64,000 nt of DNA from a bacterium (lineage in GTDB: Bacteria > Armatimonadota > Fimbriimonadia > Fimbriimonadales > Fimbriimonadaceae): positions 737,632 through 801,631 of the forward strand of contig JAIXQR010000001.1 of assembly GCA_027485645.1 (NCBI GenBank), written 5' to 3'. Position 1 is the stretch's first letter; each line of letters begins with the position of its first letter. Shown here in pieces: positions 4,481 through 59,236 of the stretch. The notes under the pieces are model-generated. The model ran no database searches and was not told the DNA's origin. It was given only the letters and a program-made list of their open reading frames with translations. The translations under genes and the position numbers were made by a program.

Positions 4481-5236
4481 ATGAAACCGGTACCCGTCTA
4501 CTCAAAGATCAAACAAGAACTTAAGGATCTGATGGATCGTGGAATGTACGAGGCTGGAGACAAGTTTCTGACCGAGCGGGATGTCGCCGCTAAGTACAAC
4601 ACGAGCCGAATTACGGCGAACAAGGTCTTGAGTGCACTAGTGGCAGAAGGCGTGCTGGAGTACCGACTTGGCGTCGGAACCTTTGTCAAAGCCCAAACCA
4701 TCGACTACGATCTGCGCTCACTCACGAGCTTCACCGCCCAGTGTCAGCGGGCCGGAAAGGTGCCGGGCACCGATGTATTGGAGTTCAGCTCGGGACGGGC
4801 AAGCGAATTCGATCCTGAAGTCATTGAGAACCTGCACTGCGGCAAACTTGACCGGATTTACCGAATGGTCCGCGTCCGAACGGCGGATGATGTTCCCGTG
4901 ATCTGTGAAGAGCGTTACTTGCTCGCTGGCTTTTGCCCCGGACTCAAGGTCGGGGACGTTGGCGGATCACTCTTTACAACGCTTGAATCTCGGTTTGGCT
5001 TAACCCTGTACGGTTCGGAAGAAACGATTTCTGCCGTAGTGCCGACCGAGAGCGTGGCTAAGGCACTGGAATTAGAACCCGTATCAGCCGTGCTAGAAGT
5101 GCGAGCGGTCGGCTTTCTCGATGCCGAGACTCGGCTTTGGTTCGAGATCACGCACTATCATCCCGAACATTACGCCTTCTACAACTGGCTCGGCCCGCTC
5201 CGCCGGACGCAACCGGCCGAAGGCGCTTTGCGCTAA
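4481..5236 (+). CDS. GntR family transcriptional regulator (HutC/UTRA type)
   Basis: About 251 residues from the ATG at 4481; an in-frame TTG at 4457 would add eight residues but overlaps a likely -10 box (TAATAT, 4452-4457). Residues 1-70 form a GntR winged helix (PVYSKIKQEL..., LTERDVAAKYNTSR, GVGTFV). The remainder is a UTRA ligand-binding domain of the HutC/FarR group, which senses a small metabolite. The gene sits 45 bp upstream of deoC on the same strand, so it may control deoxynucleoside or pentose use, but no operator repeat was identified. Effector unknown. Confidence 0.85.
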   Translation: MKPVPVYSKIKQELKDLMDRGMYEAGDKFLTERDVAAKYNTSRITANKVLSALVAEGVLEYRLGVGTFVKAQTIDYDLRSLTSFTAQCQRAGKVPGTDVLEFSSGRASEFDPEVIENLHCGKLDRIYRMVRVRTADDVPVICEERYLLAGFCPGLKVGDVGGSLFTTLESRFGLTLYGSEETISAVVPTESVAKALELEPVSAVLEVRAVGFLDAETRLWFEITHYHPEHYAFYNWLGPLRRTQPAEGALR

Positions 5237-5281
5237 CGATCAGTAGGTCTCGAACTTCATTCAACATTCAGGAATCTAACC

Positions 5282-6001
5282 ATGTGGAATTACGCTGACA
5301 TCGCAAAAATGATCGACCATTCGTTGCTCAACCCAACGTTGACCTATTCAGATCTCGTCGCGGGTTGCCGGCTGGCGGTGGCTTACGATGTTGCGAGCGT
5401 TTGCATCATGCCGTATGCGGTGCCGCTTTGCAGCGAACTCCTTCAGGAATCCGATGTGAAGGTCAGTACGACGATTGGCTTTCCACACGGCGGTCACACA
5501 ACTGCCGCAAAGGCATTCGAAGCCAACCGCGCGATTGATGACGGCGCACAAGAACTGGACATGGTTGTGAACGTCAGCCGCGTGAAGAGCGCTCACTGGG
5601 TCGAGGTTCAGGACGACATCCGAGCCGTGATTGAGGTCGCACATGGTCGCAGTCAGAAGGTTAAGGTGATCTTTGAAAATGCATATCTCACCGACGATGA
5701 GAAGATTCGTCTATGCGAGATCTGCGGTGAGCTGAAGGCAGACTGGGTCAAAACGAGCACCGGCTACGCCCCGACGGGAGCGATTACGGAAGACCTAATC
5801 TTGATGCGCAAGCACAGTCCTGAGCATGTGCAGGTCAAGGCCGCAGGTGGCGTGCGAGACCTGGATCGCATCATTGAAGTGCGAGCAATCGGCGTCACGA
5901 GAATCGGCACAAGTTCGACACCTAAACTGCTGGACGAGGCCCGTGCGCGGTTGGGGCTTGAGGCGATTACGACTCAGGCAGCAGAGGTTTCTGGGTACTA
6001 G
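5282..6001 (+). CDS. deoC: Deoxyribose-phosphate aldolase
   Basis: 239 residues. DeoC cleaves 2-deoxyribose-5-phosphate to glyceraldehyde-3-phosphate and acetaldehyde in the cytoplasm. The Schiff-base lysine lies in WVKTSTGYAP (Lys157), and the second active-site lysine in VKAAGGVR (Lys186). The IGFPHG and LDMVVN motifs and the length match bacterial class I DeoC. A GntR regulator lies immediately upstream. The last 35 bp overlap the 3' end of nhaA on the other strand. Confidence 0.95.
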   Translation: MWNYADIAKMIDHSLLNPTLTYSDLVAGCRLAVAYDVASVCIMPYAVPLCSELLQESDVKVSTTIGFPHGGHTTAAKAFEANRAIDDGAQELDMVVNVSRVKSAHWVEVQDDIRAVIEVAHGRSQKVKVIFENAYLTDDEKIRLCEICGELKADWVKTSTGYAPTGAITEDLILMRKHSPEHVQVKAAGGVRDLDRIIEVRAIGVTRIGTSSTPKLLDEARARLGLEAITTQAAEVSGY

Positions 6002-22426: not shown

Positions 22427-23848
22427 TTACGGTCTCGCGTATTGTACACACTCGTCCAGCCCAATCCTGCAACTCAACTGGGTCTTGAACCTGCGCTTCG
22501 GGTCCCACTCATCTCTTAGAGCGGTAAATCGAGCAATCGCGGCCTCTCCCAGGCTGCGCTTCGCTTGCTCGGGAGACAGTAAACCGTCCTTCGCGAAGTA
22601 GAACCGACCTCCGGCGTTAAGGACAACATCGGCCATTTCCATGTACAGGTGGTTCAACGCCGGCGCATTTCTCGGCGTTTGGCGGAAGTCCAGAGCAAGC
22701 GAGAAACCATGGTCCAGATAGCGCAGCCACGTTTCGTCCGGGCGATGCTTCTTCAGAACGACAAGGTAGGGCTCTAGTTTTGCGGAGCGCCATCGTTGGG
22801 CGAGGTTGTTGAAGATGCCTTCCGCTGCTTGGGCTGGGACGATGGCTTGAAATTGAAGCAGTCCGTTCGGAACGTATGCCTGCTGCCAATTCGGCAAGTA
22901 ATCCAGCGGAAAGTTGTACTGAACCAAGCTCATAACCTTCGGCGCGCCTTCGGAAATCCGGGCGGCGTTGCTCTTGAGGGCAGAGGCAAGTTTCATTCCG
23001 GGCCGATTTGTGATGCGGCGCAGATGCTTCCAAGCGGTGTCGCGGTGAATGAGTCCCGCTAACTTGCCTTCGATTTTTTGATGCCGCAGGTCGAGGGTTT
23101 CGGGTTCCGATGACTCGGAATGCCACGCGGCCTGGAACACGCCAGCGCCGTTGGTAAATCCATTTACCCAGCTCACCGAGTAGTCCGCGTCATCGAATTT
23201 CTCGAACATCTCGAACTGCTGCGCCCAGCTGTGCACCCGTCGCTGGACGACGCGAACGTTACCGCTAGAGATTTTTTTTAGACGAAACCGGACTTTTGTT
23301 ACGATTCCGAGCAGACCGAGTCCGCCGTGTACGGCCCAGAACTCGGGCTGGGAAGGGGTGAGTTGCCGGACTTCGCCGTTGGCAAGCATGATCTCCAGCA
23401 TCTCGACGTGCTCGGCAAACGTGCCATGAGTGATGTTGTTCTTGCCGTGGATGTTGGTCGAAACGGCACCGGCGAGGGTGGGCTTCATGGTGCCGCTGAC
23501 GACGTTGAACCACCAGCCATCTTGCAAAACGTACTGCCAAATCGCTTCCAGAGTGGCGCCGCCTTCTGCTTCGATCACCCCAGTTTCCTTGTCCCAGGCG
23601 AGGACGCGATTCATACGGGCGAGGGAAATCGTTACGGATTCGAGAGGGCTGGAGGCGTCCCCGTAGGATTTGCCGCTGCCGCGCAACGTGATCGGCACAT
23701 CGAGCTCTTCCGCCAGGAGGACAACGCTTCGGAGTTCATGGAGGCTCGTCGGTTCGAAGAGGTAGCCATCTCCGGGCGAGAGGCCCCCGAAGCCATCAAA
23801 TCGGCGAATTCGCGCGAGTTCTAGATGCCGCGTCGCTGCATGATCCAA
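22427..23848 (-). CDS. dprE1: DprE1-like FAD-dependent oxidase (polyprenyl-phosphoribose 2'-epimerisation)
   Basis: 473 residues, close to the 461 of mycobacterial DprE1. DprE1 oxidises the 2'-OH of polyprenyl-phospho-ribose to the 2'-keto form. The VAO-type FAD domain shows RGSGKSYGD (Tyr62), NIHGKN (His134) and GGLGLLGIVTKV. The substrate domain shows YNFPLDYLPNWQQAY, LLQFQAIVP and GGRFYFAKD (Lys420), each matching mycobacterial counterparts as I recall them. The residue aligning with the benzothiazinone-reactive Cys387 is Ala385. The start overlaps the DprE2-like gene by 28 nt, and the UbiA gene precedes that. Role in arabinose-donor synthesis is inferred from the trio. Confidence 0.82.
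   Translation of the reverse strand: MDHAATRHLELARIRRFDGFGGLSPGDGYLFEPTSLHELRSVVLLAEELDVPITLRGSGKSYGDASSPLESVTISLARMNRVLAWDKETGVIEAEGGATLEAIWQYVLQDGWWFNVVSGTMKPTLAGAVSTNIHGKNNITHGTFAEHVEMLEIMLANGEVRQLTPSQPEFWAVHGGLGLLGIVTKVRFRLKKISSGNVRVVQRRVHSWAQQFEMFEKFDDADYSVSWVNGFTNGAGVFQAAWHSESSEPETLDLRHQKIEGKLAGLIHRDTAWKHLRRITNRPGMKLASALKSNAARISEGAPKVMSLVQYNFPLDYLPNWQQAYVPNGLLQFQAIVPAQAAEGIFNNLAQRWRSAKLEPYLVVLKKHRPDETWLRYLDHGFSLALDFRQTPRNAPALNHLYMEMADVVLNAGGRFYFAKDGLLSPEQAKRSLGEAAIARFTALRDEWDPKRRFKTQLSCRIGLDECVQYARP
22441..22446 (-). promoter_or_regulatory. Candidate internal -10 box (TACAAT) for nrnA-truB
   Basis: On the minus strand TACAAT lies inside the 3' end of the DprE1-like gene, about 39 nt upstream of the nrnA GTG. 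This leaves a short 5' UTR with a GGGGAG ribosome site, and would let nrnA, truB and the DUF2752 gene be expressed apart from the polysaccharide genes. Confidence 0.35.
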
Positions 23849-24552
23849 GACGGCAACCTCCGAATGATCGCAAAGATGAGGTGATGCTTCGGCTCTAGGT
23901 AGTACTCCCTCGAACGGCTTGTTTTTGAAAGGATGATCTTCGCCGCGTTGCTGGCCGAGATGGCGTTTTTGAAGTTGAGGTGTCGCGTCATTTCCGTATC
24001 GACCGGGCCAGGTTTCACGTTGATGACGATGACGCCAAGCTTCGACAGGCGATTTCGTAGGGCCTCGAGATAGGTCGAGAGCGCGGCTTTCGAGGTGTTG
24101 TAGACCGGCTGTCCCGGGCGACCACGATCGCCGGCGACGCTACCGATCCCGATGATCGTGCCGGATTGTGAGCCTTGAAAACGGATCGCCGCCTGATTCA
24201 GCCACGCAATCGCGCCGAGGACATTGACGTTGATCATGGCCATGTCCTTTTCGGTGTTGAACTCGGTCTTTCCGACCTCGGGCATGACGCCGGAGGCGTA
24301 GATGATGAGGTCACATCCGCCGAGCTGCGACGTGACTTGTTGAAAGAGCTCCGGCACTTCGCCGAACTCGGTCACGTCGTGGGCAAAGGGCAGAATCAGG
24401 TTCGGGAACCGCGCGGCGAGCTCGTCCAGTCGGTCCTTTCTTCGGGCAACTGCGGCAACGCGGCAGCCGGAGGCGGCAAGTTGCTCAGCGAGGGCAAGTC
24501 CGATGCCCGAGGATGCGCCAACAACGATTGCGGTGCGAAATGAGCGGGCCAC
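23821..24552 (-). CDS. dprE2: DprE2-like short-chain dehydrogenase/reductase
   Basis: 243 residues. DprE2 reduces the 2'-keto intermediate made by DprE1 to polyprenyl-phospho-arabinose using NADH. The Rossmann motif GASSGIG is at residues 12-18; the catalytic residues are Ser138, Tyr151 and Lys155 (GSVAGDRGR, then VYNTSKAAL). The sequence after the active site, NVKPGPVDTEMT, and a hydrophobic C-terminus are typical of the DprE2 subgroup. It lies 3 nt after the UbiA gene and overlaps DprE1 by 28 nt. By sequence alone it could be another SDR; the neighbours decide the call. Confidence 0.82.
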   Translation of the reverse strand: MARSFRTAIVVGASSGIGLALAEQLAASGCRVAAVARRKDRLDELAARFPNLILPFAHDVTEFGEVPELFQQVTSQLGGCDLIIYASGVMPEVGKTEFNTEKDMAMINVNVLGAIAWLNQAAIRFQGSQSGTIIGIGSVAGDRGRPGQPVYNTSKAALSTYLEALRNRLSKLGVIVINVKPGPVDTEMTRHLNFKNAISASNAAKIILSKTSRSREYYLEPKHHLIFAIIRRLPSWIMQRRGI

Positions 24553-24555
24553 GGG

Positions 24556-25470
24556 TTACCTGGATCCTCCCGAAACCGGACCCACTTTCGGGCCGAAGTC
24601 ACCGAGTCTGGGTGACACCATCGCGAACAGGGCGGTCAGGCCAAAGAGCACGACGGCGGTGATCATCGGGATGTCCTTGAGGAATAGGTTCTCTGGCTCC
24701 GCGCCATCGTTCTCGGTAAAGGTGAGGAACAGGAAGCGGAACACTGCGAAGGCAACCCAGAGGTAGGTGAACTTCAGGAGCGGGTGGTCCATTGCGGTTT
24801 GGCTTTCGATGCAATACACGCCGTATCCGAGTAGCGACGCGGCAGCGCAGACCACGACCGCCGTATCGAGGAAACGCAAGTTGTAGGCGCCCAGGCTTGT
24901 TCGGGTGGAGCTTGCACTGTCGCCCATCAGAATGCGCTCGCCACGTCGTTTGCCGAAACCCAGCATGAGGGCGAGGGAAAAGGTGCAGTAAAGAAGCCAG
25001 GACGAGACTTCAACGTTCATCGCCGCGGCACCAATGGCCGCGCGCAAAACGAAGCCGGAGGAGAGGCAGAATACATCGGCGATCGGCTGGCTTTTCAGGA
25101 CGAGGTTGTAAGCGGCCTGGATGGCGATGTAGAGAACGATAATCACCGTAGCCAGAGCGGGCAACAGCGTGAGTAATCCAAAGGCAATCACGGTCAGAAC
25201 TACCGCAAGAGCAATGGCAATCGGTACTTTCACCTCGCCGGAAGCGATGGGCCGAAACTTCTTTTTCGGATGGAGTCGGTCTTGTGGCGCGTCGAGGGTG
25301 TCGTTGACGATGTAGGTCGCCGAGCCCACCAGACCGAAGATCAGGAAGGCCAGCAAGCTGAGACGCCATCCTTCGGGGTTGTTGAGCGGATCGGTGAAGA
25401 GGATCGCGGCAAAAACGACAAAGCCCTTGATCCACTGTTTCGGGCGTAACAAGCGGAAGTACGGGGCCAT
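24556..25470 (-). CDS. ubiA: UbiA-family prenyltransferase, polyprenyl-phosphate phosphoribosyltransferase type
   Basis: 304 residues with eight or nine membrane helices. The first aspartate-rich motif NDTLDAPQD (Asn56 to Asp64), followed by HPKKKFRPIASG, is the form found in decaprenyl-phosphate 5-phosphoribosyltransferase (Rv3806c type) rather than in quinone or heme enzymes. The opening RLLRPKQWIKG also fits. It would transfer 5-phosphoribose from PRPP to polyprenyl phosphate at the membrane, the first step to polyprenyl-phospho-arabinose. It is followed directly by DprE2- and DprE1-like genes; the 5'-phosphatase for the next step is not seen. Confidence 0.83.
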   Translation of the reverse strand: MAPYFRLLRPKQWIKGFVVFAAILFTDPLNNPEGWRLSLLAFLIFGLVGSATYIVNDTLDAPQDRLHPKKKFRPIASGEVKVPIAIALAVVLTVIAFGLLTLLPALATVIIVLYIAIQAAYNLVLKSQPIADVFCLSSGFVLRAAIGAAAMNVEVSSWLLYCTFSLALMLGFGKRRGERILMGDSASSTRTSLGAYNLRFLDTAVVVCAAASLLGYGVYCIESQTAMDHPLLKFTYLWVAFAVFRFLFLTFTENDGAEPENLFLKDIPMITAVVLFGLTALFAMVSPRLGDFGPKVGPVSGGSR

Positions 25471-25506: not shown

Positions 25507-26355
25507 CTAAGCCGAGGGCTCGGACTGCTTGAGTCTATCCGTAAACCGTTGCAGGGCGGAATCGAGATTCGGCATTTGGGGAATTCCGGCGGCTTGCAGC
25601 TTCTCGTTACTTAGAACCGAGTATTTCGGGCGTGCGGCAGGAGTCGGCCAGTCCTCGGTTCGGATCGGGCTGATATCCGCTTCGGAGATGCCATACGCGG
25701 CGACGGATCGCTTCGCGAAGTCGAACCAGGACATCGGCTCGCTTCCGGTTGCGTGGTAAATGCCGTCGGGCAGGTTTGCGTCGATCGCTTGAACGATGGT
25801 TTGCGCGAGGTCTTCGGTGTAGGTGGGGCAGCCGATCTGATCAGCAACCACGCGGAGGGGTTTGCCGGAGGACGCCACGCGGATCATCGTCTTCGGGAAG
25901 CACGGTCCTTCTGCGCCGAAGAGCCAACTCGTGCGAAGCACGATGGCTGAGGCGATGTTTCGCTCACCGGCCAGCTTGGTCCGGCCGTACTCGTTCATCG
26001 GGTTGGTTTCGTCGTTCTCGACGTACGGGCTGGTTTTCTCGCCGTCGAAGACGAAGTCCGTGCTGATATGGATCACGCGTGCGCTGAGGTCTGCGGCGGC
26101 AGAGCTGAGGTACGAAGGGCCGAGGGCGTTCGCCTCGTAGGCGGCTTGCTTCTCCTGCTCGGCAAGGTCGACCTTCGTGTAGGCAGCGCAGTTGATGATC
26201 CAGTTCGGGCGGCCCAATTCTCCCATCCCTAGCTGAGCCATCTGGGTTGGGTCGGCGATATCACACTGCGCCCGAGTTAGACCCGTTGCGGCTGAGCCGA
26301 AGGCACGCAAGACGTCTTTTCCAAGCATGCCTCCAGCACCGAGAACGAGGATCAT
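25507..26355 (-). CDS. rfbD: dTDP-4-dehydrorhamnose reductase
   Basis: 282 residues. RfbD/RmlD catalyses the last NAD(P)H-dependent step to dTDP-L-rhamnose. The Rossmann start GAGGMLG, ISTDFVFDG, the YGRTKLAGE catalytic Tyr-Lys and RTSWLFG are characteristic. Its start overlaps the upstream membrane-protein gene by 4 nt. rfbB and rfbC are 21 kb away at 47-48.5 kb, so the pathway is split; rfbA is not in the window. Confidence 0.93.
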   Translation of the reverse strand: MILVLGAGGMLGKDVLRAFGSAATGLTRAQCDIADPTQMAQLGMGELGRPNWIINCAAYTKVDLAEQEKQAAYEANALGPSYLSSAAADLSARVIHISTDFVFDGEKTSPYVENDETNPMNEYGRTKLAGERNIASAIVLRTSWLFGAEGPCFPKTMIRVASSGKPLRVVADQIGCPTYTEDLAQTIVQAIDANLPDGIYHATGSEPMSWFDFAKRSVAAYGISEADISPIRTEDWPTPAARPKYSVLSNEKLQAAGIPQMPNLDSALQRFTDRLKQSEPSA

Positions 26356-26708
26356 CCCGCTTGCTCTTGCGCGGCTTTCTTAATCTTCTGATCCATCACA
26401 AAGTAGATGATGATCAGGATCAACGGGATGACGGGTGCCACGTAGTGGGCGGCAACCATAAAGCGCGTGGTGATCGTGGTTCGGTAGGCGTAAGAGTCAA
26501 CACTTGGGTTTACGTAGCGCCAGAACCACGAGAAGCCGAAGAAGAAGCCGACCACGAACAGCACTAGGCTGATCCAACGCCATTTCGGCATATCTCCCGA
26601 GTTTTTAAACGAGATCCATCCGAGAATGAGCGAGAAGAAGCCGAGCACCGAAAAGAGTGCCGGCATCATCAAAATTTGGGTTGAGTTCCATGCGACTTCG
26701 CCTGGCAT
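26352..26708 (-). CDS. Small membrane protein, three helices
   Basis: 118 residues with three strong membrane helices (about residues 12-34, 44-67 and 83-106) and a short basic C-terminal tail. No family recognised. It lies between galE (21 bp upstream) and rfbD (4-nt overlap) in the galE-rfbD-ubiA-dprE2-dprE1 run. In size and location it resembles small GtrA- or Rv3789-like proteins that act on polyprenyl-linked sugars, but I see no sequence motif to support that. Confidence 0.75.
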   Translation of the reverse strand: MPGEVAWNSTQILMMPALFSVLGFFSLILGWISFKNSGDMPKWRWISLVLFVVGFFFGFSWFWRYVNPSVDSYAYRTTITTRFMVAAHYVAPVIPLILIIIYFVMDQKIKKAAQEQAG

Positions 26709-26729: not shown

Positions 26730-27722
26730 TTATGAGTGATCTTCGTAGCCGTTTGGATGGCTCGAGTGCCATGCCCAGGCGTGCTCGATGATGGAACGGA
26801 GATCTGGATATTGCGGATTCCAATTCCAGTCGGCTTTCACCTTAGCGCTTGAACCGATCAGTCGTGCCGGATCGCCGGGACGACGAGGACCGATGGAGTG
26901 GGGAACGGGCAAGCCGGTTACTTCTTCGACCGTTTTGATCACTTCTGCTACCGAATAGCCGTTCCCGTTGCCAAGGTTGTAAAAGCGGGAATCGCCGCCG
27001 TCCCGCAAGTGCGAGATCGCCAAGGCATGAGCCTGGGCGAGGTCGGCAACGTGGATGTAATCGCGAATGCAAGTGCCGTCGGGCGTGTCGTAGTCGTTTC
27101 CGAATACGGTCAGGGGTGGCTTCTTGCCTGTCGCGGCAAAAATGGCGTTCGGAATCAGGTGAGCCTCGGGGCGATGGTCTTCGCCGATAGCGCCGTTTGG
27201 ATCTGCGCCGGCGGCATTAAAGTATCGAAGGGCGACGCTTCGCAGGCCGTAGGCGTGGTCGAAGTCTTTCAGGATCATTTCAACCGCAAGCTTGGTTTGG
27301 CCGTACGGTGAGATCGGGTTTTGCGGGTGATCCTCGGTGAGGGGAATGCGTTGCGGTTCGCCAAAGGTTGCGCAGGTTGAGCTGAAGATGAACTTCTTGA
27401 TCCCACGTTCTCGCATGATCTCCAGCAGGGCGAGGACGGCGGAGGTGTTGTTCTTCCAGTATTTTCCGGGCTCCGTCACGCTCTCGCCGACGTACGTGTA
27501 GGCCGCGAAGTGCATGACCACGTCGATTTCTGGATTGGCATCGAAAACCGCGTGAAGATCGGCTTCGTTGCGGAGGTCTCCTTTCACAAACGGCGAGCCT
27601 GCAACCGCGGCTTCGTGACCGTATTCCAAGTTATCGAAAACCAGGTGGGGCCACTCATGGTTTCGGAGCCATTGCGTCATGTGCGAACCGATGTATCCCG
27701 CGCCGCCAACAACCAAAACCAT
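26730..27722 (-). CDS. galE: UDP-glucose 4-epimerase
   Basis: 330 residues. GalE interconverts UDP-glucose and UDP-galactose with bound NAD+. Visible features are GGAGYIGSH, AAYTYVGES, SSTCATFG, the catalytic YGQTKLAVE, RYFNAAGADP and RDYIHVADLA. Length is family-typical. It heads the minus-strand run down to DUF2752 and diverges, 35 bp apart, from the metallophosphoesterase gene. Confidence 0.95.
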   Translation of the reverse strand: MVLVVGGAGYIGSHMTQWLRNHEWPHLVFDNLEYGHEAAVAGSPFVKGDLRNEADLHAVFDANPEIDVVMHFAAYTYVGESVTEPGKYWKNNTSAVLALLEIMRERGIKKFIFSSTCATFGEPQRIPLTEDHPQNPISPYGQTKLAVEMILKDFDHAYGLRSVALRYFNAAGADPNGAIGEDHRPEAHLIPNAIFAATGKKPPLTVFGNDYDTPDGTCIRDYIHVADLAQAHALAISHLRDGGDSRFYNLGNGNGYSVAEVIKTVEEVTGLPVPHSIGPRRPGDPARLIGSSAKVKADWNWNPQYPDLRSIIEHAWAWHSSHPNGYEDHS

Positions 27723-27757: not shown

Positions 27758-28567
27758 GTGGTTCGACGTCGGCTAACCCGGAGAGAGTTTGTTGCAGGCG
27801 GAACGCTTGCGGCAATCTCGGCGGTTGGCGTCTGGGGCAGTCTAGAAAGCGACGCCATAGCAGTCATCCGCCGCCGCATAGAAGTGCCTGGCGCGGATAT
27901 GAAGGGCCTTAAGCTCGCTTTTCTGACCGATTGGCATCTCGATAACGCAGCAGCGGTTACTCGCGCGGACAGGAGCATTCAGATGGCCATCAAAGAGAAG
28001 CCGGACATGATCGTGCTGGGCGGCGACTACTGTTCGCGAGGCCGTGAGGTCTGGAAAGAACGCGTCACGACGGATCGGCTCAAGTTGCTGTTCGATGCGG
28101 GGATTCCCGTCTTTGGGATGCTCGGCAATCACGACTACGCGTTGGAAGCCACGGAGCACCTGCGGGCGACGTTTGCTCAGCTGGGCATGACGCTGCTGGT
28201 CAACCAGGTTGTGAATTACCAGGGCATTCAGGTTGCGGGGATCGACGACATGCTCTTTGGACGGCCGCAGATGAACTTGCTGCAAGAAAGCGGGGACCGA
28301 AATACGATTCTTTTGGTCCACGAACCGGACTTTGTTCCGAGCGTGGGCGGAGAATTTGGCCTAGCTCTAAGCGGTCATACCCACGGTGGGCAGATTTGCT
28401 GGGCCCCCGGAGTACCGATTCACCTGCCGAAAGGTGGAAGAAATTATGTTCACGGTGAGTTTCGGCAAGGGGACGCCGCGATGTACGTCAGCCGAGGAAT
28501 TGGGATGACGGGAGTCAATTTAAGAGTCTTCGCTCCGCCGGAGTTGACCATCTTAGAATTGGTCTAG
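27758..28567 (+). CDS. Tat-exported metallophosphoesterase (YkuE/YaeI type)
   Basis: 269 residues from a GTG at 27758. The N-terminus RRRLTRREFVAGG followed by a hydrophobic stretch is a twin-arginine signal. Calcineurin-like motifs follow in order: LTDWHLD, GGDYCSR, GNHDYAL, VHEPDF and GHTHGGQI, which bind two metals. Related proteins hydrolyse phospholipid headgroups or nucleoside-linked lipids. The setting between galE and glmS suggests envelope work. Substrate unknown. Confidence 0.87.
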   Translation: MVRRRLTRREFVAGGTLAAISAVGVWGSLESDAIAVIRRRIEVPGADMKGLKLAFLTDWHLDNAAAVTRADRSIQMAIKEKPDMIVLGGDYCSRGREVWKERVTTDRLKLLFDAGIPVFGMLGNHDYALEATEHLRATFAQLGMTLLVNQVVNYQGIQVAGIDDMLFGRPQMNLLQESGDRNTILLVHEPDFVPSVGGEFGLALSGHTHGGQICWAPGVPIHLPKGGRNYVHGEFRQGDAAMYVSRGIGMTGVNLRVFAPPELTILELV

Positions 28568-30423: not shown

Positions 30424-31110
30424 ATGAACAGCGATCCAGTAGAAAAAGCCGGCCCGAGTCTGCCGCCCTTCGCGTCGAACTTAGTTCGACGCGGGAAGTA
30501 TGGCTATCAGTCTTACCGCGCTTTGAAAAGGGTCGTTGATATTGTTGTTTCGCTCGGCGCGTTGATTTTGCTCTCGCCCGTATTCTTGGTTCTCACCTTG
30601 TGCATCGCAGCGGCGGATGGATTCCCGGTGCTCTTTCGCCAGCGCCGCCTAGGTGAGAACGGCGTCATGTTCTCCATGCTGAAATTTAGAAGCATGGTGA
30701 AGAACGCCGAAGAAGTTCTGAAGCGAGATCCGGTTCTTTACGAAGAGTTCAAAACGAACTTTAAGCTCAAGAACGACCCTCGAATTTTGCCAATTGGTAA
30801 GTTCATTCGTAAGACAAGCCTGGACGAGCTGCCGCAGCTGATTAACGTTTTGCGCGGCGAAATGAGCATCGTCGGCCCCCGTCCGATTGTCGAGAAAGAA
30901 CTCGAAATGTACGGGGATAAGAAGGACATTTATCTCTCAATGAAGCCGGGTTGCGCGGGACTTTGGCAGTGTAGTGGCCGCAGCGAAACGTCTTACGAGG
31001 AGCGGGTTGCCTTGGACGAACAGTATTACGTCACGGCGAGTATTCGAAACGACATCAAGATTTTGGTGATGACGTTTCTTGCCATCCTTAAGAAAGAAGG
31101 GGCGCAGTGA
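30424..31110 (+). CDS. Undecaprenyl-phosphate sugar-phosphate transferase (initiating)
   Basis: 228 residues of the bacterial sugar transferase family (WbaP/WcaJ C-terminal domain). One re-entrant membrane helix near residues 38-60 (VVDIVVSLGALILLSPVFL) is followed by FRQRRLGENGVMFSMLKFRSM, TSLDELPQLINVLRGEMSIVGPRP and PGCAGLWQCSGRSE. It loads the first sugar phosphate on undecaprenyl phosphate at the inner membrane and so starts the repeat unit. It lacks the N-terminal four-helix domain of WcaJ. The next gene overlaps its stop by 4 nt. Confidence 0.93.
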   Translation: MNSDPVEKAGPSLPPFASNLVRRGKYGYQSYRALKRVVDIVVSLGALILLSPVFLVLTLCIAAADGFPVLFRQRRLGENGVMFSMLKFRSMVKNAEEVLKRDPVLYEEFKTNFKLKNDPRILPIGKFIRKTSLDELPQLINVLRGEMSIVGPRPIVEKELEMYGDKKDIYLSMKPGCAGLWQCSGRSETSYEERVALDEQYYVTASIRNDIKILVMTFLAILKKEGAQ

Positions 31111-38392: not shown

Positions 38393-40450
38393 TTAGTTCA
38401 GATCCTCAGAGTAGAACTCGGTGTTGGTGAAGACGACTCCAAGCAAGCGAGCATGAGCATGTCGAAGCAGCTCGATGCAGTACCGCATGAGGGTCTTGGT
38501 GGTGGCTCCTGGCTTGACGACAAAGACGACCGTGTCCACGGTTGCGGAAAGGCTCAGCGCGTCCGAGCGGGGAAGCATGGCTGGCGTGTCGAAGATGACG
38601 AGGTCGTACCGCTCAATCATCTCCCGATACATCTTTTGCATCGCGCCGCTGCCGAGGCCATCGGCCAAGCTGACTTCGCCCGAACCAGCGGTGATGAGGT
38701 GCAAGCCTTCAATCTCCGCGCTTCTCGTGACTGTTTCGAGTCCTTGCTGGTTGGAAAGGAGGTCGGAAAGGCCAGGACCACGCTCTAAGCCAAACCGGTC
38801 ATGGACGGCGGGCCGGTGCATGTTGGCATCGACCAAGAGCACGGATTTGCCCGTTCCAGCCATCGCGATGGCAAGGTTGGAGGCAACCTCGGATTTTCCT
38901 TCGCCGGCCCCCGTACTCGTGATCATCATCGACTTGAAAGGGTGTTCGGTAAGCGAGAAGAGCACGTTCGATCGAACGATACGGTAGTTCTCCATCACAC
39001 GGGAAGGAAGCGCATTTGACTTTCGCGCTGCCTTGCCGAAGGCGCGAGGCGGAACATAGCCAAGCGTCGGCGCATTCGCGATGCGGTACGCCTGATCAAG
39101 CGTGGTGATCTTGTCTTCCAGGCGATCTCGGACGATGGTGATGATGAACGCGATCACGAGTCCACCGACCAGCGCAAAGCCAATGTAGAGAGGTGGGTTT
39201 GGCTTGTTTCGCTTGGGCTCAGTGGGCAGCTGGATGATTTCGACCGGGTTTCGAATCGAGTTCTCGTAAACCTTCAGCTGCTGCGAGGAGCGGGAAGTGT
39301 TGTCAAGGTCTGCCTTAAGTAGTTCAACCTGCCGGCGGAGTCCAGCTATTTTGTCTCGCAGTTCGCTGTACTTGTTTAAGCGCTCGCGGGCTTCGTCCCA
39401 AACTCGCTTTCGCTGCGTGACTCGGGCCTCGGCGGCCTTCATTCGGGCTTGGGATTCGGCGATCTTGTCGTCGTAAAGCTGAAGAGCAGGGTTGCGAACA
39501 ACGCGCTGATTATCGAGAACCTTCGGCAGGCCCTGGATGTACGCCTCTTGCGACTTGACCTGGGCGTCGATCTGGCGAAATTCGACCGCACGTTCGTCGA
39601 AGATTTGGGAGACGCGGTCTCGCTCCGACTTAAGGTCGCTCAGCTTCTGGTTCGCCGCTTGAATCTGGTCGATGTTCTTTTCGACGGTTTGGTTTGGAAT
39701 CGTCTTCGGAAGCTTTTCGCGCTCCATCTTGACCTGGCGGAGGTATTCCGTTTCCGAGTCATATTCGGTCAGGGTGGCGTTGTATTCCTGCTCGGCGCGA
39801 ATTTCGACGGCGCTTCGGTCAACCGCTTCGGTTTCACTTGGCGACAGTTTGTTGTCGAGCAAGAATTTTCCAAGCTGAGTTTCTGCTTCGGCAAGGCTGG
39901 TTTTGGCCTTCTCCTGCAAACCATCCAAAAAGACGATCGCCTGTCGAAGTTCCGCGCTGTTGCGGTCGACCACCAACGTTTTGTAGGTTTCAGGAAGTTG
40001 GTCGGCGACGCGTCGAGCTAGTTCGCCGTTCGACGAGGTCACGGTGACTTCGATGACGTTGGTGAGCCCGACTTGGCGCGCCGAGACTTCCGGATCGCCG
40101 GGTTCTTTCGGCGTCAAGGAAGCGTCACGGCCGATAACGGTCTGGACGGCATTGCTTACAACGACGCCGGATTGGATCTGTTCAAGCTGGGTGGGGATGT
40201 CCGTGACGATTGGCGCAGTGACTTTGAACAGCGGGTCTTGGGTGTTAACCGGAGGAGCTTGCTGGCCCGAACGCCCTTCAACGACAATCCGTGTCGAGGA
40301 CTGGTAGGTAGGTTCAACAAGCAGGATGGCCGCGAGTCCGGCACCGGCAGCAATGACCAGTGAGATGATGACGACCCAACGCTGACGCTTAACCGCGTCC
40401 AAGAAATCTCGGAATGATGCATCCGTTGGTTGAGCTTTCACAACATCCAT
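38393..40450 (-). CDS. Polysaccharide co-polymerase fused to BY-kinase (Wzz-Wzc/ExoP type)
   Basis: 685 residues. The Wzz domain has membrane helices near residues 28-50 and 425-445, with a coiled-coil periplasmic region between them. The cytoplasmic kinase has Walker A TGAGEGKS, Walker A' VLLVDANMHRP and Walker B LVIFDTPA. It sets chain length and controls export by cycles of tyrosine phosphorylation. Unlike E. coli Wzc, the C-terminus has no tyrosine cluster, only one tyrosine in the last ten residues (EFYSEDLN). It heads the seven-gene operon; a TACAAT box on its strand lies about 40 nt upstream (40489-40494). Confidence 0.93.
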   Translation of the reverse strand: MDVVKAQPTDASFRDFLDAVKRQRWVVIISLVIAAGAGLAAILLVEPTYQSSTRIVVEGRSGQQAPPVNTQDPLFKVTAPIVTDIPTQLEQIQSGVVVSNAVQTVIGRDASLTPKEPGDPEVSARQVGLTNVIEVTVTSSNGELARRVADQLPETYKTLVVDRNSAELRQAIVFLDGLQEKAKTSLAEAETQLGKFLLDNKLSPSETEAVDRSAVEIRAEQEYNATLTEYDSETEYLRQVKMEREKLPKTIPNQTVEKNIDQIQAANQKLSDLKSERDRVSQIFDERAVEFRQIDAQVKSQEAYIQGLPKVLDNQRVVRNPALQLYDDKIAESQARMKAAEARVTQRKRVWDEARERLNKYSELRDKIAGLRRQVELLKADLDNTSRSSQQLKVYENSIRNPVEIIQLPTEPKRNKPNPPLYIGFALVGGLVIAFIITIVRDRLEDKITTLDQAYRIANAPTLGYVPPRAFGKAARKSNALPSRVMENYRIVRSNVLFSLTEHPFKSMMITSTGAGEGKSEVASNLAIAMAGTGKSVLLVDANMHRPAVHDRFGLERGPGLSDLLSNQQGLETVTRSAEIEGLHLITAGSGEVSLADGLGSGAMQKMYREMIERYDLVIFDTPAMLPRSDALSLSATVDTVVFVVKPGATTKTLMRYCIELLRHAHARLLGVVFTNTEFYSEDLN

Positions 40451-40593: not shown

Positions 40594-41502
40594 ATGGCAA
40601 GCGACGCAACAAGTTTAGGGCAAAGTTCGGTCATCACCGAACCTGTGGCGGAGAAAAAAGCCTCGGTTGATTGGCAGACCATTGTCAAGTCAGAAGCTTT
40701 TCCTTGGGTGGTTGTTCTCGCCATTGCGATTTGTGCCCTATTTTCTGGCCTTTTGGCGGGATTGCCCAGTTTGTGGTTCCGTTCGGAGTCGTACTACTCC
40801 CATGGCATCCTGGTTCCGGTGATCGCGGGCTACATGCTTTGGACCCGCTGGCCTGAACTCGAGAAAATTGAAAAGAAGCCGGCTTACTTGGCGGCAATCC
40901 TTTTGGTTCCGGTGCTTTACATCACCTGGGTTGCGGCTCGTACGAGCATGGCGTTCACGCTGTCGTTGCTGTTTATCGCGACGATCGCGCTTGCGACTTG
41001 GGCCATTGCGGGCTGGAAAATGCTCGTCGCTTCGATTCCGGCGACTTTGTATTTGCTCTTCGGACTACCGGTGTGGAACTGGGTCATTGACCGTTTCACT
41101 CAGCCGATGCAGGAAATTTCGGCAAAGGTCTCGTTCGAACTCTTGCGAGCGATGGGCTACCAGATGTACCGGGCGGACAGCGTCACGATCATGCTGGATC
41201 AGTTCGAAATGAACGTGGGTGCTCCTTGTAGCGGCCTGCGGTTGATGCTGTCGCTGATCGCGCTCATGGTGTTCTTTATGTACATCGCGAAGCTACAGTG
41301 GTGGGCAAATGCCTTTTTGGCCGTGTTCATCATTCCGTTCGCCATCCTCATCAATGGAGTGCGAATCGCGATGATCGGCGTAGTTGGAAATACGTACGGC
41401 TACGAGGCTGGGCACCAATTCCACGATTACAGCGGATACATCAGCTTGGTGATCTGCTTCATCGTCCTACAGAAAGTTTGCCGCGCCTTGGGGTGGAAAT
41501 AA
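40594..41502 (+). CDS. xrt: Exosortase
   Basis: 302 residues with about eight membrane helices. The exosortase/archaeosortase catalytic triad is visible: Cys212 in GAPCSGLR, Arg257 in NGVRI and His277 in FHDYSGY. Exosortases cleave and transfer PEP-CTERM-type proteins; in polysaccharide loci they are known as EpsH. A TATTAT box and AGGGAGA stand just before the ATG. It overlaps the EpsI gene (TAATG) and diverges from the Wzz/BY-kinase. No PEP-CTERM substrate is seen in this window. Confidence 0.93.
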   Translation: MASDATSLGQSSVITEPVAEKKASVDWQTIVKSEAFPWVVVLAIAICALFSGLLAGLPSLWFRSESYYSHGILVPVIAGYMLWTRWPELEKIEKKPAYLAAILLVPVLYITWVAARTSMAFTLSLLFIATIALATWAIAGWKMLVASIPATLYLLFGLPVWNWVIDRFTQPMQEISAKVSFELLRAMGYQMYRADSVTIMLDQFEMNVGAPCSGLRLMLSLIALMVFFMYIAKLQWWANAFLAVFIIPFAILINGVRIAMIGVVGNTYGYEAGHQFHDYSGYISLVICFIVLQKVCRALGWK

Positions 41503-42152
41503 TGAACAAAACCGGATTCATCGTTGTTATCGGATTGATCGGCCTCACGGCGGTTGCCTCAACTTTGGCTCCGCGTCCGGTTGCAGCCAAGCGAACCGAA
41601 GCCTGGCTAGAGGATCAAATCCCGGAGAAGATCGACGGATTTGAGTACGTTCCGAGCGAGGACAACCCGAAGCAGAGCTACAAGATGGACAAGATGGTGT
41701 ACGACACCCTGAATCCATCGGGCATCGTTTCCCGCGTGTACTCGAAGGGTGGCGAGCAGTATGACGTCGTCCTAGTTAACAGCGACAACAGCGACAGCTT
41801 CCACGACCCACGCGTCTGCTTCCAGTCTCAAGGTTCAGAACTTATCAACGAGCGTGGAGTGTCGGTGACCACAAGTACCGGCGAGAAAATACCGGTCTCG
41901 TTTGTGGAGACCAAGATGAACGGCGAGTCACGGCTCGCGGCGTACACCTACAAGGGGCCAGCGGGCTACAACCCTGCGCCACTTCGACTGCTCTTCGACA
42001 TCTTCAAGGCCGAACTTTCGACCGGGAAAGTTCAGGAAGGGACGTTTTATCGCATCATCGCGCTGAGCCCAAGCACGGACGAGGAGCAGATGAAAAAATT
42101 CACCGCTTCCTTGTTGGAAGCGGTGAATAAGCAGAGCAAAGGGATTCTGTAA
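41502..42152 (+). CDS. epsI: EpsI family protein (DUF3485), exosortase partner
   Basis: 216 residues from the ATG at 41502. An N-terminal signal or anchor (GFIVVIGLIGLTAVAS) is followed by an exterior domain. The motif FHDPRVCFQSQG holds the conserved His101 and Cys106. EpsI is either fused to or next to exosortases in many exopolysaccharide loci; its reaction is not established. Its end is 4 bp from the convergent ugd stop. Confidence 0.88.
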   Translation: MNKTGFIVVIGLIGLTAVASTLAPRPVAAKRTEAWLEDQIPEKIDGFEYVPSEDNPKQSYKMDKMVYDTLNPSGIVSRVYSKGGEQYDVVLVNSDNSDSFHDPRVCFQSQGSELINERGVSVTTSTGEKIPVSFVETKMNGESRLAAYTYKGPAGYNPAPLRLLFDIFKAELSTGKVQEGTFYRIIALSPSTDEEQMKKFTASLLEAVNKQSKGIL

Positions 42153-45522: not shown

Positions 45523-46587
45523 GTGATTCTTCCGACGCTGCTCTTGGCGATCGGCTGCGCAGATCGTCGCACCCCGGTGACTTATTCGATGCCGAGTGTC
45601 GAGGCATCGCGGGTACTGGTAGTTGTCAATAGCCGAAGTGAGCTCAGTCTCGAAATCGGGAACTACTACCTCGCCAAGCGAGGCATCCCGGCAAGCAACC
45701 TTTGCACGATCTCGGTATCGCCGACCGAAGAGGTTGTTGTTGCGAGCTACAAGCAAGATATTGAGAATCCGATTCGTCAGAAACTGGTCGGGCTTAACCG
45801 TCCTATAGACTACATTGTCTTTACGAAAGGCGTCCCTTTTCGAATGAACAACAAGGGGCTCTCGATCGATGCGGCAATCGCTTCGATGGACATCAAGGAC
45901 GACGGGAGTGCCGCCAAAGATCCGAACGCCGGCGCGCTGCCAAATCCGTACTACGGTAAGTCGGAGCCGTTTTCGCACGAGAAGTACGGGATGTACTTGG
46001 TCACTCGGCTAGATGGATATACGATTGATGACGTCAAGAAGCTGATCGAACAATCGATTAAGGCGTACAAGGTCGACGGAACCTTCCTTATTGACGAAGC
46101 TGATGATCGTAAAACGGGAGACTACGGCAAGTTCCAAGAAACGTTTGTCGAAGGAGTCGTGAAACTTCGGAACAAGAAACTCCAAGTCATCCACGATCAA
46201 GAGCGGGAGTTCGCCTCACCGACCGACACTTTGATTGGCTACGCAAGCTGGGGCTCAAACGACCGCCAATACCGGCCAGAGCTGTACCGTAAACTCAAAT
46301 TTGCTCCGGGTGCGATTGCAGAGACCTTCGTGTCAACCTCGGCCCGCACGTTCAAGCCGACTAGCGGAGGGCAAAGTCTGATCGCCGATCTGATTCATCA
46401 GGGGGTAACCGGAGTGAAAGGTTACTGCAGTGAGCCGTATCTGTTTGCGATGGCTAATCCATCGATCCTGTTTGATCGGTACACGGATGGCTTCAATCTT
46501 GCCGAGAGCTTCTACATGGCGTCGCCCGTTATCAAGTGGAAAGACATTATCATTGGCGACCCGATTTGTCGCCCATTTAAGAAGTGA
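45523..46587 (+). CDS. TIGR03790 family lipoprotein
   Basis: About 354 residues from a GTG at 45523, one nt after the previous stop. The N-terminus ILPTLLLAIGC is a lipoprotein signal with the lipobox cysteine. The TIGR03790 pattern follows: VLVVVNSRSELSLEIGNYYLAKRGIP, FTKGVPFR, a GYASWGSND segment and VTGVKGYCSEPYLFAMANP. The family occurs in bacteria with exosortase-like systems; its reaction is unknown. Placement between the uronate epimerase and gmhB, with GTGA overlap to gmhB, ties it to envelope polysaccharide. Confidence 0.87.
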   Translation: MILPTLLLAIGCADRRTPVTYSMPSVEASRVLVVVNSRSELSLEIGNYYLAKRGIPASNLCTISVSPTEEVVVASYKQDIENPIRQKLVGLNRPIDYIVFTKGVPFRMNNKGLSIDAAIASMDIKDDGSAAKDPNAGALPNPYYGKSEPFSHEKYGMYLVTRLDGYTIDDVKKLIEQSIKAYKVDGTFLIDEADDRKTGDYGKFQETFVEGVVKLRNKKLQVIHDQEREFASPTDTLIGYASWGSNDRQYRPELYRKLKFAPGAIAETFVSTSARTFKPTSGGQSLIADLIHQGVTGVKGYCSEPYLFAMANPSILFDRYTDGFNLAESFYMASPVIKWKDIIIGDPICRPFKK

Positions 46588-47069
46588 GAAAAGCGGCATT
46601 CCTTGATCGTGACGGCGTGATTAACGTCGATACTGGCTATCTTTCTAAGATCGAGGATCTCCAGTGGACTCCCGGAGCGATAGAAGCCATTCACCGGTTG
46701 AAAGCAATGGACTACCTGGTGATCGTGGTGACGAACCAGTCCGGAATCGCGCGCGGTTACTACACCGAGCAGGAGTTCCGAGAACTGACTATAGCCATGT
46801 TCGAATCAGTGCCAATTGACGCCGTGCTTTTCTGCCCACACCATGCGGACCTAACCGGGCCATGCGACTGTCGGAAGCCAGAACCCGGAATGTTGTTACA
46901 CGCAGCAAAGATCTTCGCCGTTGACTTAGCGGCTTCGTTTTTTGTAGGCGATCAGCCGAGCGATTTAGAAGCAGGTGCGCGCGCCAAGGTTGAAACGTGG
47001 CGGTTCGAAGGCGGCCGACTCGATCAGTTTATAGAAGATCGCCTAAGTACTTTCCGTAGTACTGCTTAA
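46584..47069 (+). CDS. gmhB: D-glycero-beta-D-manno-heptose 1,7-bisphosphate 7-phosphatase
   Basis: 161 residues from a GTG overlapping the previous stop. HAD-family phosphatase with LDRDGVIN (Asp8, Asp10), VVTNQSGIARGYY, the zinc site CPHH...CDC and the Lys-Pro KPEPGM, then FVGDQPSD. It removes the 7-phosphate in ADP- or GDP-heptose synthesis. gmhA is 1.5 kb further on, past rfbBC. The 3' end overlaps the convergent rfbB gene by 41 bp. Confidence 0.92.
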   Translation: MRKAAFLDRDGVINVDTGYLSKIEDLQWTPGAIEAIHRLKAMDYLVIVVTNQSGIARGYYTEQEFRELTIAMFESVPIDAVLFCPHHADLTGPCDCRKPEPGMLLHAAKIFAVDLAASFFVGDQPSDLEAGARAKVETWRFEGGRLDQFIEDRLSTFRSTA

Positions 47070-48057: not shown

Positions 48058-48500
48058 AGCTTGAACCTCGAGTTCGGATCGTTCTCGTGGCGGATTTCAT
48101 CCACCTCTTCCTTTCGATCCCAACCCGCGTACAGCCTGTCTGGCACGTTAACGACCATCGCGTCCTGGTCTCCAACGTTTCGGTATGCGTGAACCACCCC
48201 CGGCGGAACGGTGACAAAGGTTGGATTCTCGCGTCCGACGTGCAGAACTTCGTACTGCTCTGGTTCCCCTTCGCGATTTTCCCAAAGGTGAAGTTCGTAG
48301 GCGCCGTCAAAAAAGAGAAATCCGTCGGTTTGATCGTGGTGCTCGTGCGGGCCGCGGGCAACGCCGGGCTTCGTAACGCTCAGATAGCCCATCGCCGGGG
48401 AAAAACCTTCTGGCAAGCTATCGACGCGGAAAAGTTCAACGAGCCAACCCCGCGCATCCTCGTATCGAGGGACCGATTTCACGACTACACCTTTCATCAT
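48054..48500 (-). CDS. rfbC: dTDP-4-dehydrorhamnose 3,5-epimerase family protein
   Basis: 148 residues, shorter than classical RmlC (about 180). Cupin fold with ARGPHEHHDQTDGFLFFDG and VPPGVVHAYRN, the pattern of the short RfbC branch. It would epimerise C3 and C5 of dTDP-4-keto-6-deoxyglucose on the way to rhamnose. Stop overlaps the rfbB start. The promoter probably lies in the 40-bp gap shared with divergent gmhA. Confidence 0.87.
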   Translation of the reverse strand: MMKGVVVKSVPRYEDARGWLVELFRVDSLPEGFSPAMGYLSVTKPGVARGPHEHHDQTDGFLFFDGAYELHLWENREGEPEQYEVLHVGRENPTFVTVPPGVVHAYRNVGDQDAMVVNVPDRLYAGWDRKEEVDEIRHENDPNSRFKL

Positions 48501-48527
48501 TGCGGCGGGAAAAGGGTACCCCTCGGT

Positions 48528-48533: not shown

Positions 48534-48540
48534 ATGGGTG

Positions 48541-57307: not shown

Positions 57308-59236
57308 ATGCTTGCCGTACTCATCACGTTTATCTTTTGCCTCGGATGGCTAGGGATTGGCAAGGCGCTTCTGGGCAAGCATTTAGAGCAGGAGGGAGGC
57401 ACGCTTGGCTTCAGCGTGGCCGGGCTCGTTGGGCTCGGCCTTTGTGGCTGGATCACGTTCTTCGTAGGACTGGTCCCCGGTGGATTGAACTGGGGGCTTT
57501 ACGTCGTGGGGGCGATCGCGGTTGTCGGCCTAGGTTTGTTGGCAAAGGGCGGCTTACGCGACATTCAGCCTTCGAGCTTGCTCGCAGCCGTGCCGGTGCT
57601 TTTCACCGGCCTCATCGGGGTGCTTGCTCCGAGCACAACGCTCGACTGGGACACGCTGGCGTATCACTTTGCCGTTCCCAAGATTTGGCTCCAGCACGGG
57701 CAGATTGATTTCATTTCGTTTATCCATCACTCCAATTTTCCGTTTGCCGTCGACAATCTGTACATTTGGGGCCTAAGCTGGGGAGGAGAAGCGGGAGCCA
57801 AGGCTTTTAGCGTTTGGTTTGCAGTGCTCGCGGTTCTGGGAGCCTTTGGCGCGGCCAGTGCGGCATACGGGAAGAAGGCCGGAATTTGGGCTGCGGTCTG
57901 CTTTGGCTGTCTGCCGATGGTCCTTTGGCTCAGCGGAACGGGCTACATCGATGTCAGTCAAGGGGTCTTTGCTGGACTGGCTCTGTACTACCTGGGGCAA
58001 TGGATTCAGAATCCTGAAGTCCCAAGTCGAGCCGTTCTCGGCGTGGTTTTGCTGGGGCTTGCGATGGCCAGCAAGTACACCGGATTGCAGACGGCGATTG
58101 TCTTCGCCTTGATTTTCGGATTTGTCGTGACGAGAAAGGGGCATGGCCTCAAGCTCTCGCCCGCCCTCATTCTCATTCCAATCGTCATCTGCGCGCCATG
58201 GTACTTGCGCAATATTGTAAATACCGGCAACCCGGTTTATCCCTTCTTCTATAGCGTTCTGAAAGGGAAGAACTGGAGCGATTACAACGCCAAGATCTAT
58301 GCAAACGAACAGCAGACTTTCGGCGTTGGGCGGGAAATTGCCAGCGCCGAACGGCCGGATTACACCGCGAATCCGCTAGAATTCTCCCGCTTACCGCACG
58401 CTATTTTCGGGCTTTCTTACCAGCCTGGGCGCTACATAAACCCGTCTCCGACGCAGGGGCAAGGAGTCCCGATGGGGGCGCTTGGCGCGGTTGGACTGCT
58501 TGCTCTCATCGCCTGGTTAGCGAGTGGTCGATCGCGAAAGTTCGAAGCGACGCTCATCGCGGGAGTCGGAGTGAGCTTGCTCATGTGGTTCTTCTTGAGC
58601 CAGCAAAGCCGCTACATCGTCGGTCTGATGTTCCCGCTTTCCATCCTCGCCGCTGGGGCAATATCGCGTTTGGCTATTGGCAAGGTGTTCCAGCTTCTGA
58701 TTCCCGTTCAGGCGCTTGCCGGGTTGTACGTGACCTACACGGCTGTCACGAGCGATCAACTGGAGGTTGCACTCGGCCAAACGGATCGGGAGGCCTACCG
58801 GGTGCGCCGCATCTCGTTTGCAGAACCTGCGGCGGAGATCAACTCGACGGTCAAGCCTGCGAAGATCGCGCTGTTTGATGAAGTGTTTGGCTTCTTGCTC
58901 GACGTGCCGTACTTCTGGGGCAACCCAGGACACACGACGGAGGTTGGCTACGAGGCCATGGAGACTCAGGATGACTTCGTGGATGGTTTGCAGAAGCAAG
59001 GAATCTCACACCTCTACTGGAACCTGAGCTTAACTCCGAAACCGCAGCGAGATGAGCTTCTGCAGGCATCCGGATTAGTGGGTACGCCGGTGGCGCTCAA
59101 TCCCGATGTGAGGGCGAATCTCATGGCTGATACGCAGAGCAAGTGGAAGCCATTACTCGTTGAAGCGATTGCTAGCGGCCGAATTCGGCTCGTAAAGGAG
59201 TTCGGTAGCCGAGTGATCTTGGAAATCGTTCGGTAA
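57308..59236 (+). CDS. Multi-pass membrane protein, GT-C glycosyltransferase-like
   Basis: 642 residues with about 12 membrane helices in the first 480 and a soluble C-terminal domain of about 150. After the third helix the first exterior loop reads STTLDWDTLAYHFAVPKIW; an acidic residue in this loop is the hallmark of GT-C enzymes (PMT/ArnT-like), which use polyprenyl-phosphate sugars. SKYTG and YLRNIVNTGNPVYPFFY, found in many such proteins, follow. A polyprenyl-phospho-arabinose donor from the DprE genes is one possible substrate, but that is inference. Confidence 0.75.
   Translation: MLAVLITFIFCLGWLGIGKALLGKHLEQEGGTLGFSVAGLVGLGLCGWITFFVGLVPGGLNWGLYVVGAIAVVGLGLLAKGGLRDIQPSSLLAAVPVLFTGLIGVLAPSTTLDWDTLAYHFAVPKIWLQHGQIDFISFIHHSNFPFAVDNLYIWGLSWGGEAGAKAFSVWFAVLAVLGAFGAASAAYGKKAGIWAAVCFGCLPMVLWLSGTGYIDVSQGVFAGLALYYLGQWIQNPEVPSRAVLGVVLLGLAMASKYTGLQTAIVFALIFGFVVTRKGHGLKLSPALILIPIVICAPWYLRNIVNTGNPVYPFFYSVLKGKNWSDYNAKIYANEQQTFGVGREIASAERPDYTANPLEFSRLPHAIFGLSYQPGRYINPSPTQGQGVPMGALGAVGLLALIAWLASGRSRKFEATLIAGVGVSLLMWFFLSQQSRYIVGLMFPLSILAAGAISRLAIGKVFQLLIPVQALAGLYVTYTAVTSDQLEVALGQTDREAYRVRRISFAEPAAEINSTVKPAKIALFDEVFGFLLDVPYFWGNPGHTTEVGYEAMETQDDFVDGLQKQGISHLYWNLSLTPKPQRDELLQASGLVGTPVALNPDVRANLMADTQSKWKPLLVEAIASGRIRLVKEFGSRVILEIVR

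Follow-up and report, generated by a model that had tools for sequence, protein, structure and literature searches.

A three-gene module at positions 22427-25470 of the 64,000-nucleotide window (the whole stretch of DNA analysed, i.e., positions 737,632 to 801,631 of contig JAIXQR010000001.1 in assembly GCA_027485645.1, from a member of Fimbriimonadaceae, phylum Armatimonadota) very probably makes a polyprenyl-phospho-D-arabinofuranose (D-Araf) donor. The decaprenyl-phospho-arabinose-type donor module proposed in an initial annotation of this DNA was supported by family models and matches to solved structures, by a tree, and by the conserved order and co-occurrence of the genes; this support pointed to D-Araf in the envelope of Armatimonadota, of which few members have been cultured. 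The module was composed of three minus-strand open reading frames (ORFs):

24556..25470, minus strand: UbiA-family polyprenyl-phosphate phosphoribosyltransferase (DPPR synthase; 304 aa; NF008977, PDB 8j8j, motifs)
23821..24552, minus strand: DprE2-like short-chain dehydrogenase (SDR; 243 aa; GASSGIG and YNTSK motifs, adjoining DprE1)
22427..23848, minus strand: DprE1-like FAD-dependent polyprenyl-phospho-ribose 2'-oxidase (473 aa; PF01565, NF053785, PDB 4aut, tree)

The ORF check reproduced the coordinates, the strand, the 3-nt gap between UbiA and SDR, and the 28-nt overlap between SDR and oxidase, as the initial annotation had them; this overlap was also kept in the relative G013 (locus L034; 91% identical). 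As assigned from sequence and gene context, UbiA would transfer phosphoribose from phosphoribosyl pyrophosphate to polyprenyl phosphate, and the DprE1-like oxidase plus the DprE2-like SDR would invert ribose C2 via a 2-keto intermediate. Between these steps a phosphatase would take off the 5'-phosphate (candidate: a HAD domain fused to GtrA); the GtrA protein would then flip the lipid-linked sugar, and a GT-C enzyme (57308-59236 being a candidate only) would attach the sugar extracytoplasmically to a surface glycan, with an acceptor that may be tied to the exosortase/exopolysaccharide system.

UbiA, DprE1-like, and DprE2-like proteins

The window UbiA scored 239.8 bits against the NCBIfam decaprenyl-phosphate phosphoribosyltransferase model NF008977 (cut-off 234), compared with 43 and 35 bits for quinone and heme UbiA models, and its sole PDB match was Rv3806c (8j8j; E 1.4e-32). 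The motifs NDxxDxxxDxxHxxKxxRPxAxG and KRxxE...R..L..Y were kept in 15 relatives, and the Asp-rich NDxxDxxxD motif plus the KR..E...R..L..Y residues were common to the window UbiA and Rv3806c. Assignment to the Rv3806c family was supported by both the hidden Markov model and the PDB sequence comparison.

The oxidase had DprE1 as its best match in NCBIfam (NF053785, E 1e-66) as well as in PDB (4aut, E 1e-39), the closest VAO enzyme other than DprE1 standing at E 8e-13; the SDR matched the DprE2 model NF053786 at E 2e-28. In the alignment, HGKN, QxQ, K366, and AKD were conserved across DprE1-like oxidases, and the family kept the HGK motif and the equivalents of Gln336, Lys367, and Lys418 (residue numbers, like that of Cys387, of Mycobacterium tuberculosis DprE1). 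The position of Cys387, the benzothiazinone target, was occupied by Ala in all 33 aligned DprE1-like sequences; this cysteine is, to our knowledge, not a catalytic requirement, and its replacement predicts natural insensitivity of the family's DprE1-like enzyme to that drug class.

The DprE1 tree contained 104 DprE1-like proteins together with seven other VAO oxidases (six from the window's family, two of those from the same genome as the window); it was a quick tree, its branches long and its root fork weak, and only its large, supported splits were used. All DprE1-like proteins, including those of Rhodococcus and Nocardia, fell into one group far from other VAO oxidases of the same genomes (outgroup branches of 6.3 changes per column, the root fork being weak), and the grouping of the oxidase with unrelated VAO enzymes, named at the outset as the refuting outcome, was not seen. 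Three subsets were resolved: (i) an actinobacterial one with Rhodococcus and Nocardia, (ii) a mostly proteobacterial/Bacteroidota one, and (iii) a clade holding the window together with other Armatimonadota, Chloroflexota, Planctomycetota, and Myxococcota (SH-aLRT 98, stem 1.18). The order was DprE2-DprE1 in the third clade and DprE1-DprE2, mostly after UbiA, in the other DprE1 types; a DprE2-like gene adjoined DprE1 in nearly every locus that had sequence to show it, including those of Armatimonadota, Chloroflexota, Planctomycetota, and Myxococcota. Eight genomes of the window's family matched the other DprE1 type in place of the window type (tree-confirmed for two, G058 and G049), and no genome of the family had both, as expected if the two types do the same job.

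Families are labelled below as f1 (that of the window) and f2-f5 and f12 (other Armatimonadota families), with g15 being a small-genome genus within f1. The equation of f1 with Fimbriimonadaceae relied on a DprE1 shared without differences by G047 and CP021423 (Armatimonadetes bacterium Uphvl-Ar1), together with the neighbours in the tree. The survey across Armatimonadota suggested in the initial annotation found DPPR synthase in 194 of 201 genomes and DprE1 in 95, of which 94 also had DPPR synthase and one did not; this co-occurrence is weak evidence by itself because the base rate of DPPR synthase is so high. As to linkage, 38 of the 43 f1 genomes carrying window-type DprE1 had UbiA no more than 3 kb away from it, and the order DprE2-DprE1-UbiA was displayed by four of six f12 genomes. 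Outside Armatimonadota, no UbiA adjoined the window-type pair; of 20 genomes of this kind, 19 encoded DPPR synthase elsewhere, a count that becomes 25 of 26 if the Armatimonadota of the same search are added. In g15 (G054 and G055, 1.5-Mb genomes), UbiA, DprE1, GtrA, and both tested GT-Cs were all absent, while HAD was present. By these counts, almost all sampled Armatimonadota genomes would specify a lipid-linked pentose; neither this nor D-Araf in the envelope of the phylum was reported in the literature searched. As a separate observation, a DPPR synthase relative (31% identity) was carried at 4931-5731 of one metagenomic phage record, MT837543.1.

Flippase and phosphatase candidates

The only GtrA protein of the genome was fused with a HAD-IIIA (YqeG-type) domain displaying DxDxT and GDxxxTD motifs, and the 5'-phosphatase described as not obvious in the window thus has a candidate, but elsewhere in the genome:

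L073:9637-10695 (= G000 C2:27136-28194, on contig C2 outside the window): fusion of a YqeG-type HAD phosphatase with GtrA, in a ruvX-mltG-aroE operon

The fusion was found in 29 of the 33 family genomes searched (one of the 29 with an in-frame stop); the remaining four had HAD and GtrA as neighbouring separate ORFs (G052 and G032) or HAD alone (the two g15 genomes). GtrA adjoined UbiA in f2-f5, and in a nod cluster of Sinorhizobium (L068) it stood beside UbiA, DprE1, and DprE2. In f5, the order HAD-UbiA-GtrA lay between mltG and aroE, and two of these loci had a 4-nt overlap of HAD and UbiA. UbiA appears to have departed from the mltG-aroE operon in the family of the window, with HAD and GtrA left behind and then fused, a direction that we infer. 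Since g15 lacks UbiA, DprE1, and GtrA together, GtrA goes with the pathway, and the fusion and operon evidence makes it likely to be the flippase of the lipid-linked sugar. One fused protein would thereby be a candidate for two pathway steps, 5'-phosphate removal and flipping.

For the HAD half, the same fusion and operon evidence gives the role of 5'-phosphatase a little less than an even chance. The competing role, that of the cell's phosphatidylglycerophosphate phosphatase (YqeG/GEP4), unrelated to the pentose pathway and leaving the 5'-phosphate to, e.g., a PAP2 enzyme or an unlinked HAD, has an even chance: the domain scored above the YqeG cut-off and matched PF09419 (PGP_phosphatase), the genome search found no PgpA, the gene sits in a housekeeping operon, and g15 keeps HAD while lacking UbiA, GtrA, and DprE1, all of which weighs against the pathway role. 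Set against this housekeeping role were the family-wide fusion to GtrA, the 4-nt-overlap operon with UbiA in f5, and alphaproteobacterial loci in which HAD is fused to UbiA itself; YqeG of Bacillus subtilis shows weak 5'-nucleotidase activity (PMC5080769), a property compatible with either role.

Other candidates for these two steps were dropped: (i) the calcineurin-like phosphoesterase at 27758-28567, probably periplasmic because of its Tat-like signal and YaeI resemblance; (ii) the HAD protein at 46584-47069, which is GmhB-like and near a GmhA-like SIS protein; and (iii) as flippase, the product of ORF 26352-26708 between galE and rmlD, a conserved 118-aa protein with three transmembrane segments that had no Pfam match and was not picked up by the GtrA search. 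The GmhB-like and GmhA-like proteins (46584-49110) lie near NAD-sugar epimerases, and they suggest heptose in a surface glycan.

Possible glycan acceptors, GT-C candidate, and neighbouring genes

An exopolysaccharide/exosortase locus was present at ~30.4-43.5 kb of the window, in agreement with the large exopolysaccharide locus described there, and its exosortase/exopolysaccharide genes lay 5-17 kb from UbiA. These genes are listed here, followed by the GT-C candidate, which lies outside that locus:

30424..31110, plus strand: polyprenyl glycosylphosphotransferase (Bac_transf) of the exopolysaccharide locus (PF02397; homologue in the f2-f4 UbiA-GtrA cluster)
38393..40450, minus strand: Wzz/ParA-type chain-length protein (homologue in the f2-f4 UbiA-GtrA cluster)
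40594..41502, plus strand: exosortase, EpsH family (PF09721, TIGR02602, above cut-off; homologue directly after UbiA-GtrA in f2-f4)
41298..42152, plus strand: EpsI-like DUF3485 protein, paired with the exosortase (PF11984; synteny)
57308..59236, plus strand: candidate GT-C glycosyltransferase, 642 aa (PMT_2, AF2 model, fold comparison)

The placement of the trio beside an exopolysaccharide locus held for the window itself but not for most sampled genera of the family, and the link was carried by UbiA-GtrA in sister families: in f2, f3, and f4, UbiA-GtrA was contiguous with genes for polysaccharide export protein, Wzz/ATPase, polyprenyl glycosylphosphotransferase, exosortase, and EpsI, without DprE1. 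The exosortase loci of these bacteria are thereby tied to a pentofuranose donor; the literature searched does not describe such a connection. A GalE-like epimerase gene mostly stood directly before UbiA-GtrA in these DprE1-lacking loci (e.g., L077, L080, L085, and other f2 loci), and by analogy with Citrobacter O2 it may encode a lipid-pentose epimerase.

The arabinosyltransferase had likewise been described as not obvious in the window; the GT-C gene at 57308-59236 is a candidate there, and it is a candidate only, which may or may not use this donor. Its product scored above the PMT_2 cut-off in the genome search and below it on the whole protein, and its AF2 model (pLDDT 88) matched ArnT (Z 22, the best), AftA (Z 15), Emb (Z 14-15), and many other GT-C enzymes. 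The gene was in single copy across the order and absent from g15, and it had no linkage to pathway genes. Several GT-C enzymes were found in the genome, and choosing among them by phylogenetic profile gave no discrimination, two GT-Cs sharing the same order-wide pattern. It is less likely than not that this protein is the transferase using the donor.

It is quite possible, at a little under an even chance, that the donor serves lipopolysaccharide (LPS) or protein, not an exosortase-linked exopolysaccharide: an LptF/LptG gene stands two genes before the GT-C candidate, whose best structural match ArnT is a lipid A modifier, and Pseudomonas places D-Araf on pilin. Opposed to this were the embedding of UbiA-GtrA in an exosortase/exopolysaccharide cluster in three sister families and the adjacency of UbiA and exosortase in two f1 genera. 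Between the LptF/LptG gene and the GT-C gene, ORF 54922-57276 encoded a 784-aa protein with no Pfam match, possibly an LptD-like outer membrane protein.

The immediate neighbours of the trio included two further sugar enzymes:

25507..26355, minus strand: RmlD, dTDP-4-dehydrorhamnose reductase (TIGR01214, 278 bits, above cut-off)
26730..27722, minus strand: GalE, UDP-glucose 4-epimerase (TIGR01179, 420 bits, above cut-off)

Both lay just upstream of the trio on the same strand, which confirmed the galE and rfbD genes reported in its run; they constitute a glycan neighbourhood outside the donor pathway. Downstream of the trio, NrnA/DHH was dropped as a pathway member: it is a conserved nrnA-truB neighbour and not pathway-specific.

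Alternative readings of the trio and comparison with known systems

Several points weighed against the trio as source of a D-Araf donor. The oxidase missed the equivalog cut-off of NF053785, a mycobacterial equivalog model (225.7 vs 500 bits), and the SDR missed that of the DprE2 model (99.8 vs 250 bits) and was outscored by other SDR models; the names "DprE1-like" and "DprE2-like" were adopted because of this. The proteins have low similarity to their mycobacterial counterparts, and a family as broad as that of the SDR does not fix a substrate. Moreover, the GT-C candidate was order-wide and present also where DprE1 was absent, and it is thus not specific to arabinose.

It is improbable that the DprE1/DprE2-like pair of this clade acts on a different sugar or lipid, with UbiA alone making a lipid-linked pentose. 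The long supported stem that sets the clade off from the actinobacterial and proteobacterial types would accord with such a divergence, as would the separation of the pair from UbiA outside Armatimonadota, but the window-type oxidase shared its active-site residues with DprE1, the pair was linked to UbiA in two families and in two arrangements, DprE1 co-occurred with DPPR synthase, and the window type was apparently replaced by another DprE1 type in sister genera. It is highly implausible that the window UbiA acts as a prenyltransferase of the quinone, heme, or another type, as its place in the broad UbiA superfamily (PF01040) would allow, given that it passed the DPPR synthase cut-off with quinone/heme models ~200 bits below, retrieved Rv3806c alone from PDB, and did not match the two other UbiA homologues of the genome at E 1e-3.

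With D-Araf donor synthesis as the preferred reading of the trio, a wider proposal can be put forward tentatively: the polyprenyl-phospho-pentofuranose pathway might be an ancestral, near-universal envelope trait of Armatimonadota (ribose everywhere, and D-arabinose in about half of the genomes via DprE1/DprE2), linked to exosortase/exopolysaccharide systems and with HAD-GtrA both dephosphorylating and flipping the lipid-linked sugar.

The occurrence of such genes outside Actinobacteria, which the initial annotation implied to be new, is already known. D-Araf pathways with homologous enzymes have been described for Pseudomonas paraeruginosa pili (PMC12369383) and Azorhizobium Nod factors (PMC2443382), and pathways with these enzymes for several Gram-negative glycans, including the three-component pentofuranose systems reported in 2024 (PMC11127046); in our genome scan, DprE1 relatives numbered at least 585 and came from many phyla. 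As far as the literature searched shows, what is new is the near-universal occurrence across Armatimonadota, the DprE1 clade set apart from the other types, the fusion of HAD with GtrA, and the tie to exosortase loci.

Four known systems were compared with that of the window. (i) The mycobacterial decaprenyl-phospho-arabinose pathway (Rv3806c, Rv3807c, DprE1, DprE2, Rv3789, Emb/Aft) uses the same three enzyme families, and a small SMR/GtrA-type protein has been proposed as its flippase, the counterpart here being GtrA; it differed from the window in that the window DprE1 belongs to a different clade, DprE2 precedes DprE1, Ala stands at the Cys387 position, no Emb/Aft homologue was assigned, and the phosphatase candidate is a HAD instead of the PAP2-type Rv3807c. 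(ii) The systems of Kelly et al. 2024 (PMC11127046) combine polyprenyl phosphoribose synthase, HAD phosphatase, flippase, and GT-C transferase (the HAD and the GT-C having candidate counterparts here), with DprE1/DprE2 homologues reported where Araf was found; their HAD is fused to UbiA and their flippase is of MATE type, whereas here GtrA carries the fused HAD-IIIA domain, the genes lie scattered, and no protein was assigned to GT136. (iii) The pilin glycosylation system of P. paraeruginosa PA7/Pa5196 (PSPA7_6245-6251, TfpW) is likewise that of a diderm with homologous D-Araf enzymes, but it is a compact island tied to pili, and no pilus genes were seen beside the window trio. (iv) The noe genes of Azorhizobium/Sinorhizobium gather UbiA, GtrA, DprE1, and DprE2 in one cluster (L068), but in the order UbiA-GtrA-DprE1-DprE2, with the other DprE1 type and with a symbiosis function, namely Nod factor arabinosylation.

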